NCBI GenBank assembly: GCA_016195985.1
Contig: JACPYP010000011.1
Coordinates: 558,001 to 622,000 of the forward strand
Direction of reading: 5' to 3'
Source of the DNA: Acidobacteriota bacterium
Lineage (GTDB): Bacteria; Acidobacteriota; Holophagae; Holophagales; Holophagaceae
DNA length: 64,000 bases
Under the pieces are notes generated by a model that made no database searches, was not told where the DNA came from, and was given only the letters and a program-made list of their open reading frames with translations. This document shows positions 17,194-34,753 of the stretch, piece by piece. Made by a program: the position numbers and the translations under genes. Numbering within the stretch: the first letter of the stretch is position 1; the number at the start of each line of letters is the position of its first letter.

Positions 17194-17560
17194 AAGTGTC
17201 TCCTTGACCTTGTGTATAACAGTGATGAGCGCCCCGATGTCGTGTCAAGAAGTGTTAATAAAATTAATAAGTTATCGATGGCACAAAAATTCCTTGCGCG
17301 ACAATAAATCATTCAGCAGTATTTTGTAATTCATCGACCTAAAACCTTCTGCATCCGGATTTTAAGCCTTCGCCACCAGGTCAGGAATGCCGCCCTCACG
17401 CCTCGTTTAAGACAAAGCAGTCCGCATTAATTTCCGCACCGCCGCAGGCCATGACCCCCTCCCAAACCCTGGGGACCTTCCCCAAATGGGTCCCACCCCT
17501 CATTGACAGGGGTGGAGGTTCCTGAGGATTCTGACGCCACACATGAAGGAAGGCGGTTTT
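17194..17560. other. divergent intergenic region, AT-rich in its left half
   Basis: The 367-bp gap between the giant lipoprotein and the PaaK-like gene has an AT-rich part (17230-17345) unlike the surroundings. On the minus strand TTGACA (17243-17248) and TTATAC (17214-17219) precede the lipoprotein gene, but the 23-base spacing is too long for a standard promoter. On the plus strand TTGACA at 17503-17508 precedes the PaaK-like gene with only a weak -10. No gene was seen. Confidence 0.4.
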
Positions 17561-31380: not shown

Positions 31381-32516
31381 GCGTCGCCAGGCTGCCCCAG
31401 CCTCTTCAATCGGAACGGTGGCTCGCGGTCGCCCTGGACCAGGCCCTGGAGGCCATCGCCCTCCTGGACGTGGAAGATGGGGCCATCCTCTACTCCAACG
31501 CCGCCTTTACCCAAACCTTTGGCGGTCTGGCCCAGATGGCCCCAGGACAACGGCTGGTGGATTTGTTCAGGCCCGACGGAGAAGGCCGGGTCCTGTCCGC
31601 GGCCCTTCAGCAGGCCCGCTCAGGCCAGGCATGGATGGGGTGCATCCTCCTCATGACCGCCAGTGGCCAACCAGTCCGCTTCGAACTGGCCATCTCCCCT
31701 GTCCGCGATGACGACGGCCTCATCCAATCGCTGGTGGTGAGGCTCCGGGACATCACGTCGGATGTCGAGAGGGACCGCAACCTCCGCCTGGCCCAAAAAA
31801 TGAACAGCCTTGGCGCCCTGGCCGGAGGCGTGGCGCACGATTTCAACAACCTGATCGGCGCCATCCTCATCACGGCCGAACAGATCGAGATGCAGGTCGA
31901 ACCTGACAGTCCCGTGAGGCGGAAACTGGAGATCATCCAGCGGATCGGCGACCGGGCGAAGGGGCTGACCTCGCAGATCCTGAATTTCAGCCGCCGTTCC
32001 GAGGGCAAGTGGTCCCTCATCGACTTCTCCGATCTGATCATCGAAGTGACCAGCGTTCTCAAGACCACTTTCCCTGAAAACGTGAAAATCCGGACGGACC
32101 TGACCAAGGGAATCAAGATCTACGGCGATCCTTCGCAGCTGCACCAGGTGATCATGAACCTCGGCATCAACGCCAGCCAGGCCATGCAACCCGGGGGAGG
32201 AACACTCTCCATCCACCTCCAGCCGGCGGCCCACGATCACGGCGGCACCTTGCGAGGCTCCGTGGAACCCTGCGTCCTGCTCACGGTGGAGGATTCCGGT
32301 TGCGGCATGGACTCCCACACCCTGGAACGGATCTTCGAGCCCTTCTTCACCACCAAAAATGCAGGCCATGGCACGGGGCTGGGCCTGTCGGTGGTTTACG
32401 ACATCGTCCACGGGCATGGAGGCAGTCTCCAGGTCTCAAGCAAACCGGGACAGGGGAGCTCCTTCCAGATCCTGCTTCCTCTGAATCACGGCAAGGTCAA
32501 GGTGTGGGCGAGTTGA
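31362..32516 (+). CDS. PAS-domain sensor histidine kinase
   Basis: The 384-residue cytoplasmic kinase has a PAS domain (residues 25-130, with ILYSNAAFTQTFGG), a HisKA domain with the phosphoacceptor in LGALAGGVAHDFNNLIG near residue 150, and an HATPase domain (QVIMNLGINASQAM, DSGCGMD, FEPFFTTK, GTGLGLSVVYDIVHGHGG). No receiver domain is fused and no regulator is adjacent downstream. AGGAGG is eight bases before the ATG at 31362. It is the first sizable gene after the perfect LytTR operator, so the upstream two-component system probably controls it. Confidence 0.9.
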   Translation: MGSHCMSVARLPQPLQSERWLAVALDQALEAIALLDVEDGAILYSNAAFTQTFGGLAQMAPGQRLVDLFRPDGEGRVLSAALQQARSGQAWMGCILLMTASGQPVRFELAISPVRDDDGLIQSLVVRLRDITSDVERDRNLRLAQKMNSLGALAGGVAHDFNNLIGAILITAEQIEMQVEPDSPVRRKLEIIQRIGDRAKGLTSQILNFSRRSEGKWSLIDFSDLIIEVTSVLKTTFPENVKIRTDLTKGIKIYGDPSQLHQVIMNLGINASQAMQPGGGTLSIHLQPAAHDHGGTLRGSVEPCVLLTVEDSGCGMDSHTLERIFEPFFTTKNAGHGTGLGLSVVYDIVHGHGGSLQVSSKPGQGSSFQILLPLNHGKVKVWAS

Positions 32517-32804
32517 GGGGGATGGGCCGCCATCGTGCCCTGCCCTTCTTTTTCGTATTTTTCGTGGAAGTCATGAAGTCCCTGCACCCGGCTGAAACCC
32601 GCCGATAGGCAATGGCTCCAACCATTTCTCATTGGACCCGCCAGCACGAACTTCTACTTCCACTCAAGCAAGTTCAAATCCAAGTGGGCCGGACCTTCGA
32701 GGCGCTCCTGCTTGGGGTTTAGCCTTACCTTACACTCGACTCGGCCTATTGTTACCCATTTGGGTACGCTCTTAATGGTTGGGCCATCGTTTCGCACGCC
32801 TTCG

Positions 32805-32828
32805 CAAGTGCTTAATATACAGCACTTG
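32805..32828. repeat. 8-bp inverted repeat
   Basis: CAAGTGCT and AGCACTTG flank an AT-rich 8-base centre (TAATATAC). It resembles an operator or a small hairpin; no adjacent gene clearly uses it. Confidence 0.4.
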
Positions 32829-33045
32829 TGTTTGCATTTTTGTAAGAGCAACTCGAAAAATCCACAGGCACAATGATATGAATCTCATTGTTGAAATCGG
32901 TTTTGACGTTCGCAATGACAACAACTGGACCTTTAAAAATCTTCAAAGTGGATCTTTTCACGTCAATCGGTGAGGGCCATGCTTCTGAGCAAGCTGGCCA
33001 GCCTTTTCCTATCACGTTTTTGCGGAATAAGCGTGAGCAAGGCCT

Positions 33046-33074
33046 TTGAAGGCTGCGTCACGACTAAATATAGA
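33046..33074 (+). promoter_or_regulatory. sigma70-like promoter of the small membrane-peptide gene
   Basis: TTGAAG and TATAGA are separated by 17 bases. The predicted start is about 30 bases before the AAGGAG ribosome site. Confidence 0.6.
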
Positions 33075-33124
33075 AACCCCTATAACTGGCCCTTTCCAGG
33101 GCGTCCTTTATCAAGGAGAATGCC

Positions 33125-33268
33125 ATAAAAGCATTTAAGAATAAAATATTTAAATGCGTCGAAGGAGGCGCAATCAGCATTCTGATGGCTGTCGGGATCA
33201 CTGTCGTTGGTTTCGGCATCCTGGCTTATGCTGCGTATGAGAGTCGACAACTCAGCCGTATTCCTTGA
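33125..33268 (+). CDS. 47-residue single-span membrane peptide, apparent ATA start
   Basis: A frame of 47 codons encodes a Lys-rich front (KAFKNKIFK), then CVEGGAISILMAVGITVVGF and further hydrophobic residues, and a short polar end. AAGGAG lies six bases before an ATA codon that would start translation; the only ATG nearby (33120) is one base past the ribosome site and hits a stop after two codons. A 17-spaced promoter and a strong terminator bracket the gene. The GGAISIL...GF pattern is reminiscent of TadG/TadE or Flp-type pilin N-termini, and a prepilin peptidase gene follows, but homology is not established. Confidence 0.55.
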   Translation: MKAFKNKIFKCVEGGAISILMAVGITVVGFGILAYAAYESRQLSRIP

Positions 33269-33285
33269 GTCAGTCCAATGTAGCA

Positions 33286-33318
33286 AAAAGAGCCCCCGGT
33301 CGTTTCGGGGGCTCTTTT
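33286..33318 (+). terminator. strong rho-independent terminator
   Basis: Perfect 13-bp stem AAAAGAGCCCCCG with CGGGGGCTCTTTT and a 7-base loop, ending in a T-run, 17 bp after the small peptide stop. Confidence 0.9.
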
Positions 33319-33441
33319 GTGGCCCAAAACCTCAAAAACCATCTATACCAGATTGCATATCGTGAGGCATGGGCTGAATGTTTATGAGATTTCTTCAACG
33401 CACCTAAGACGTTCCTGCCCAGACAACGATAGGATATACAA

Positions 33442-34479
33442 ATGCCCTTTGTCGACATCTCCCCATGGATACTCTCCTTACTACTGGCCCCATTCGGATT
33501 AATCTTGGGGTCTTTCGGCAATGTGCTGATCCACCGACTGCCCCAAGAGGACCCTGCCGAGCGAAATCTCAATAAGGCTAGCCATTGTCCAAGCTGCAAG
33601 ATGAGGATTAGTCGCTGGCACAACCTACCCATCTTTGCTTGGCTGTGGCTGCGCGGGAGGTGCGCTGCTTGTGGTTGGCGGATTCCTGTGCGTTATCCGG
33701 TGGTAGAGCTACTGACAGGATTATTGTTGACCACCTCGCCGTGGATCTTCCCTTTCGGGTCGCTAATCTGGCTTAAGGGCATCATCTGTGGCTACGCATT
33801 GATTATGCTGTTCTTCACGGACCTCACAACAATGATACTGCCGGACGTGATTCAGTTTCCGCTCATGGCCCTGGGCGTATCGTTTACCCTGCCCCAAATC
33901 TTCTACCCCGAGGCCTTGATGAAGGTTTGGACCAGTTCCGGCGATATTCTTCAAGTTCTAGCCTTCCACAATGGTCTGCAGCCAGCAGCCGCTTACCATC
34001 ACTTTGAACCCACTGTCACATGGCAGCAAAGTCTCGCCGGATTAATCATGGGTTACGGAGGCCCCTGGGCATTCGAGCGTATATATGTGTTTGTTCGCAA
34101 CGCAATCGTGGCAAATATTGGTGGTAGGTCCATCGAAGCAGGTATGGGCATGGGCGATTTCAAGATGCTCGCTTGGCTCGGTGCGTTCTGGGGTTGCGGT
34201 CCAATGCTTCAAATTCTTGGAATCGGGGCCGCATTGGGACTCTTTCTTGGGGTACCGCTGTCTATTGCATCCAGGGCTATCAAACTACCCAGAGTTTGTA
34301 GAACGCTGAATGCATGGAAGAAACCAATGCAGGGCGTTTATTGCTGGTGGTTCCGAGCCGGAATTTTGAACCAGATGCTTCCCTTTGGCTGCTTCTTGGC
34401 TCTTGCGACACTCGTTGTCGTGTTCTTTGGGCGGACCCTGTGGCTAGGATATCTAGGGCATTTGGTGTGGGCCGGGTAG
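33442..34479 (+). CDS. pilD: type IV prepilin peptidase (A24 family)
   Basis: This membrane aspartic protease cleaves and may N-methylate type IV prepilins. The 345-residue protein has the N-terminal zinc module of four cysteines (CPSCKMRISR and RCAACGWRIP), the first catalytic Asp in FFTDLTTMILPD, and the second in GMGMGDFKMLAWLGAFWG. It has about eight membrane segments and an unusually long loop between the two catalytic sites. Composition is less GC-rich than the rest of the window, and no other pilus gene is adjacent apart from the small peptide, so it looks like a separately acquired or rearranged gene. Confidence 0.93.
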   Translation: MPFVDISPWILSLLLAPFGLILGSFGNVLIHRLPQEDPAERNLNKASHCPSCKMRISRWHNLPIFAWLWLRGRCAACGWRIPVRYPVVELLTGLLLTTSPWIFPFGSLIWLKGIICGYALIMLFFTDLTTMILPDVIQFPLMALGVSFTLPQIFYPEALMKVWTSSGDILQVLAFHNGLQPAAAYHHFEPTVTWQQSLAGLIMGYGGPWAFERIYVFVRNAIVANIGGRSIEAGMGMGDFKMLAWLGAFWGCGPMLQILGIGAALGLFLGVPLSIASRAIKLPRVCRTLNAWKKPMQGVYCWWFRAGILNQMLPFGCFLALATLVVVFFGRTLWLGYLGHLVWAG

Positions 34480-34537
34480 TTGGGCTGTCACACGCTGAAG
34501 GTACGAATGAAACGAGTCGAACGCCCCTCGGACCTTC

Positions 34538-34753
34538 AGCGCTCGCGTCCCTGGCCCTGACCCACTCCTGCCTGATAGCCGCCCCATCGTCGCTCCCATG
34601 TGACGCTGACTTAGCAGCGCCACATGGGGCTCCGCGCGGCGCTTTAGCGCTCGCGTCCGGCTCCCTGACCCACTCCTGCCTGATAGCCGCCCCATCGTCG
34701 CTCCCATGTGACGCTGCCTTAGCAGCGCCACATGGGGCTCCGCGCGGCGCTTT
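34538..34753. repeat. 108-bp tandem duplication with internal hairpins
   Basis: Two almost identical 108-bp units (about 34538-34645 and 34646-34753). Each contains a hairpin in which CCCATGTG pairs with CACATGGG and CGCTG with CAGCG (34595-34628 and 34703-34736). The right unit reaches the last codon of rho. The left end of the first unit is diverged. This could be a REP-like element that also serves as the rho terminator. Confidence 0.8.

Follow-up and report, generated by a model that had tools for sequence, protein, structure and literature searches.

A 47-codon frame with ATA in the start position within an AT-rich block of an Acidobacteriota genome

Near-AUG start codons in described systems and in this genus

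Translation from AUA has been shown experimentally in S. aureus for infC, ccpN and citZ, and that report gives near-AUG starts about 10% of the reporter activity of AUG, ccpN reaching as much as 30% when the medium is rich (PMC13009471). Extended ribosome-binding sites and footprints are described there for infC, cvfC1 and ccpN, and conservation is among the features of the S. aureus AUA sites (PMC13009471). The frame considered here begins with an ATA codon at position 33125 of the window, by which we mean the whole 64-kb stretch of DNA that was analysed. It resembles ccpN, infC and citZ of S. aureus in its AUA start, but differs from the cases with extended ribosome-binding sites and footprints in having a site of 6 bases that is predicted to be paired. 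By analogy, an AUA start would be mechanistically possible at this position, although the known cases carry features that are not seen there.

A precedent is also found in the window's own genome, where no standard start precedes the conserved domain of infC, and ATT stands after GGAGGAACC. Forty-seven genomes were searched for infC, of which 41 gave a match, and in all 30 loci of the genus that were examined (L068 and L093-L121) the start was ATT following a GGAGG-like site; one of these loci also had an in-frame GTG upstream. The constancy of ATT in 30/30 loci suggests that near-AUG starts are plausibly usable in this genus. The frame at 33125 and infC have in common an AUH start after a purine-rich ribosome-binding site, with a standard start upstream absent as a rule. 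However, infC is widespread and conserved, whereas relatives of the ATA frame were not found in the collections searched.

These precedents, namely the AUA starts demonstrated in S. aureus and the ATT of infC in this genus, would favor a real gene in which selection maintains the AUA start to keep translation low, as in infC and ccpN of S. aureus. Nevertheless, the S. aureus sites combine an extended ribosome-binding site with conservation (PMC13009471), in contrast to the 6-base, predicted-paired site at 33125. We found no evidence that the ATA is under selection, and we consider this explanation decidedly improbable; among the biological readings it has the least support.

Layout and signals of the frame at 33125

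The frame and the signals around it are as follows.

33046-33074, plus strand: claimed promoter TTGAAG-17-TATAGA, 8/12 matches, no better than the background of the surrounding block
33104-33117, plus strand: predicted small hairpin UCCUU-UAUC-AAGGA, covering most of AAGGAG at 33113-33118
33125-33268, plus strand: 47-codon frame from ATA, with a lysine-rich start, one hydrophobic segment and a short polar tail
33185-33268, plus strand: alternative 27-codon frame from an in-frame ATG, with GAAGGAGG (33161-33168) upstream at 16 nt
33286-33318, no strand assigned: strong hairpin, flanked by A and U, 14 pairs, -25.3 kcal/mol, present in a second fold too

The sequence-only reading had described a complete small gene with an apparent ATA start, and its core description of the layout is correct. 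The frame consists of ATA and 46 further codons and is closed by TGA at 33266-33268. AAGGAG is separated from ATA by 6 nt, in agreement with the distance claimed, and the single membrane span is likewise borne out, the peptide reaching a Kyte-Doolittle peak of 2.4 (19-residue mean). ATA does occupy the start position: the reading frame is open 5' of it as far as TAA at 33083-33085, and no ATG, GTG or TTG occurs in frame before codon 21 (ATG, 33185), so that no standard start lies upstream, as an AUA start would have it. ATA is one base from ATG, and a base-calling or assembly error at 33127 would thus account for the unusual codon; however, the frame is otherwise unbroken and the genome reads as one of good quality (98.3% complete, 33 contigs), and we regard such an error as extremely unlikely.

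Composition is uneven within the frame, codons 1-20 having 33% GC and the remainder 52%, and the lysine-rich start may therefore merely reflect A-rich DNA. The first codons contain an operator-like inverted repeat, GCATTTAA / TTAAATGC (33131-33157), with an AT-rich center. In addition, the end of another frame (32970-33128), ATG CCA TAA at 33120-33128, overlaps the ATA. A frameshift fusing that frame to the ATA frame was considered and rejected, as no slippery site was seen by eye.

Some of the signals proved weaker than described. The sigma70-like promoter with 17-base spacing has the boxes and the spacing ascribed to it, but it is weak: its 8/12 matches fall below the 9/12 threshold of the promoter scanner, and 26 sites in the 2009-bp block score at least 8/12 (spacers of 16-18, both strands). 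The scanner's sole plus-strand promoter in 32400-34000 was ATGCCA-16-TAAAAT (33120-33147, 9/12), which falls within the first part of the frame. For AAGGAG, pairing with the UCCUU just upstream is predicted with a probability of 0.68-1.0, and this 6-base site thus differs from the strong or extended, accessible sites of the S. aureus AUA cases. An anti-SD pattern matched no 16S end in the assembly. The terminator, which had been called perfect, is indeed represented by the 14-pair hairpin, 17 nt past TGA, but its U run lies inside the stem, which explains why the terminator scanner did not list it. Judged from the predicted folds, this hairpin is probably a terminator and may act in both directions.

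The predicted pairing at AAGGAG allows the idea of a double lock, in which the AUA start and a ribosome-binding site held in a hairpin would together keep a real small membrane protein nearly silent on a lineage-specific island, the protein being made only when the balance of initiation factors or the folding of the RNA shifts. This model appears very improbable to us.

The ATA may also be irrelevant. On direct reading, GAAGGAGG inside the ATA frame is a stronger ribosome-binding site than AAGGAG, matching the consensus over a greater length, and it could serve a 27-aa membrane peptide starting at ATG 33185, with the AT-rich stretch 33120-33160 acting as promoter or operator. The position of the scanner's only plus-strand promoter and the 52% GC of the 27-codon part, as compared with 33% ahead of it, are in line with such a peptide. 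On the other hand, the 16 nt from GGAGG to ATG are a long spacing, and the fold prediction places ATG 33185 itself partly in pairs (0.35-0.96). We therefore judge the 27-aa peptide unlikely, while treating it as a serious rival to the orphan-gene reading given below.

The AT-rich block and the search for relatives

The frame is located in a block whose composition differs from that of the window, together with the following features.

32522-34530 (right edge approximate), no strand assigned: AT-rich block from a histidine kinase gene to rho, 51% GC in a window of 66% GC
32606-32744, plus strand: degenerate copy of a non-coding piece from integron-like cassette arrays, 139 bp, 68-74% identity
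33442-34479, plus strand: second prepilin peptidase gene (A24), 345 aa, Pfam A24_N_bact 3.2e-28 and Peptidase_A24 7.9e-8

We compared the block with the corresponding places in relatives, among which the kinase was present within the flank (up to 1.5 kb) in only 2 of the 29 other rho loci fetched, those of G020 and G064. In G020, the nearest relative by rho identity (98%), nothing aligned to 32522-34526; the kinase match ends at position 1038 of locus L023 and the rho-side repeats begin near 1099, about 60 bp further on. The kinase relative in G064 is more distant and stands about 100 bp from rho, and the block is missing there also. Since the block is missing in both genomes, it is most simply explained as an insertion in this lineage. 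At its left edge, the insertion has a 75-bp sequence (32533-32607) that occurs again, with 78% identity, on contig 30 of this genome, and two tandem 108-bp repeats (34524-34739) lie immediately beyond the 3' end of rho, where G020 has more, diverged copies. The peptidase gene in the block is 69% identical over residues 1-279 to the genome's other prepilin peptidase on contig 15 (G000:C15:30406).

Copies of the 32606-32744 piece were found in the genus relatives G006, G007, G008, G031 and G063, and those of G006 and G063 sit in arrays with recurrent attC-like repeats. The G006 array is integron-like (L060, G006:C5:289500-298500), and that of G063 (L062, G063:C2:369000-384000) has 21 recurrent repeats of a 178-bp family in 15 kb, separating diverse small genes that lie mostly on one strand. 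The G063 repeats end in GCCTAAC and GTTAGGC, and we take them to be putative integron attC sites. Similar integron-like places number 28 in the window's genome, including G000:C18:59888-68256, 487824-490282 and 630476-631477. An attC-like profile built from G063 had no match in the window, and around the frame only the degenerate piece 32606-32744 was found, with no attC bounds of a cassette.

Relatives of the frame were sought at several depths. The protein matched only itself among 93 genomes of the class, with none of the 92 others below E 0.05, and only itself in a phylum sample of 396 genomes (0/395 others at E 0.01). A DNA search over 60 genomes found none, and the window's own genome has no second copy of the protein. 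No relatives were found in viral contigs, plasmids, genome contigs or PDB sequences, the viral and genome contig scans being seeded by short peptide patterns and reaching close relatives only; a phage search with the frame protein gave only noise at E 7-10. Pfam, NCBIfam and PHROGs returned no family for the protein, that is, nothing or sub-threshold unrelated names, and Rfam had no match anywhere in the window.

Small membrane peptides with a single span, type I toxins among them, are short and have one hydrophobic segment and their own terminator. The ATA frame is like them in size, in its one hydrophobic segment and in having a probable terminator of its own, but shows no sequence or family match: no type I toxin family rose above chance in Pfam, NCBIfam or PHROGs, nor did any appear with Rfam in the window. 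A glycine ahead of the hydrophobic stretch had suggested prepilin-like processing by the neighboring peptidase; this is no more than speculation, as the protein matched no type IV pilin or Flp family, giving one sub-threshold unrelated match in Pfam and none in NCBIfam.

A pattern search with 19 fixed bases at and around the start site returned 23 unrelated genome stretches, 18 of them carrying ATG at the start position; the remaining five (ATC or ATA) look, from their translations only, like the interior of longer genes. When the frame was compared with these 23 stretches by tblastn, nothing but short pieces with E values of 1.0 or higher was obtained. The 18/23 indicates the usual codon at such a site rather than the one that 33125 once had, and makes a poor stand-in for relatives.

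Coding statistics and the preferred explanation

Chance was modeled with 2000 dinucleotide shuffles of 32522-33441, in which we counted a ribosome-binding hexamer 5-10 nt ahead of an ATA, ATC or ATT frame of at least 40 codons. Such frames occurred in 140/2000 shuffles, and in 9/2000 when a hydrophobic segment was also required; the same test with ATG, GTG or TTG frames gave 150/2000 and 7/2000, respectively. Across the window, 30 SD-plus-ATH frames with a length of 30 codons or more were present, 8 of them without an upstream standard start. Only two were hydrophobic, both sharing the ATA frame at 33125-33268. Another SD-plus-ATT frame of the window, at 17528, was dropped, a standard ATG lying five codons downstream. 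An ATA frame with a hydrophobic segment is thus uncommon by chance, but it was chosen post hoc.

The RNY share of the ATA frame (0.43) was the highest, as compared with 0.13 and 0.22 for the other forward frames, although this signal cannot separate it from the exact antisense frame. By codon score it was the best of the six frames (-5.1), followed by the exact antisense frame (-6.1) and the other four (-15.9 to -24.6). Codon statistics therefore favor the ATA frame over the other frames, but the absolute score is poor: it is negative over the 47 codons (-5.7) and is exceeded by 214 of the 1558 segments from this intergenic stretch.

These figures bear on a second serious rival, that of a spurious open stretch in foreign intergenic DNA that looks like a gene because an AAGGAG arose by chance and a real terminator hairpin follows. 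The absence of relatives in every search, the 140/2000 shuffles, the 8 comparable frames in the window, the weak promoter and the poor absolute codon score all agree with a spurious frame. The hydrophobic segment, which lowers the chance expectation to 9/2000, the frame-specific codon bias and the terminator 17 nt past the stop argue against it, and we hold it to be somewhat unlikely.

We tentatively prefer, with a probability of about 0.4, a weakly expressed or decaying orphan gene for a small membrane peptide on a lineage-specific insertion. It starts from what is observed, namely how the unit is laid out, the inserted block and the absence of any relative from the searched collections. Support comes from AAGGAG with its 6-nt spacer and the strong hydrophobic segment, from an RNY share above that of the other forward frames and a codon score above that of the other five, together with the 9/2000 shuffles, and from the ATG in 18/23 same-site matches, the missing block in G020 and G064 and the ATT of infC. 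The orphan-gene reading is weakened by the lack of relatives, the absolute codon score of -5.7, the 33%/52% GC split, a promoter at background level and an RNY signal that cannot exclude the antisense frame. As for the complete gene originally proposed, the unit-like layout and the ATA stand, whereas its promoter is ordinary for the region, its ribosome-binding site is predicted to be paired, an internal ATG offers an alternative start and relatives were not found.

Under the orphan-gene reading, the AT-rich, lineage-specific insertion would carry a small frame for a membrane peptide that has no relatives, with initiation now or formerly at 33125, and this frame may be translated now or have been so in the past. 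In the most economical history, a single substitution would have turned a standard start into AUA while the gene was under weak selection or none. Any product would presumably be made at a low level, through mispairing of fMet-tRNA on AUA, and the likeliest guess at its role is a membrane-inserted accessory peptide.

Taken together, the observation is sound, and the thing itself is probably ordinary. As a single unconserved site, it serves mainly as a caution that a tidy unit in foreign DNA, without relatives or expression data, does not count as evidence for an unusual start. Automatic gene finding misses AUA starts, and a proven AUA case, if true, would add to the short list of natural near-AUG starts.
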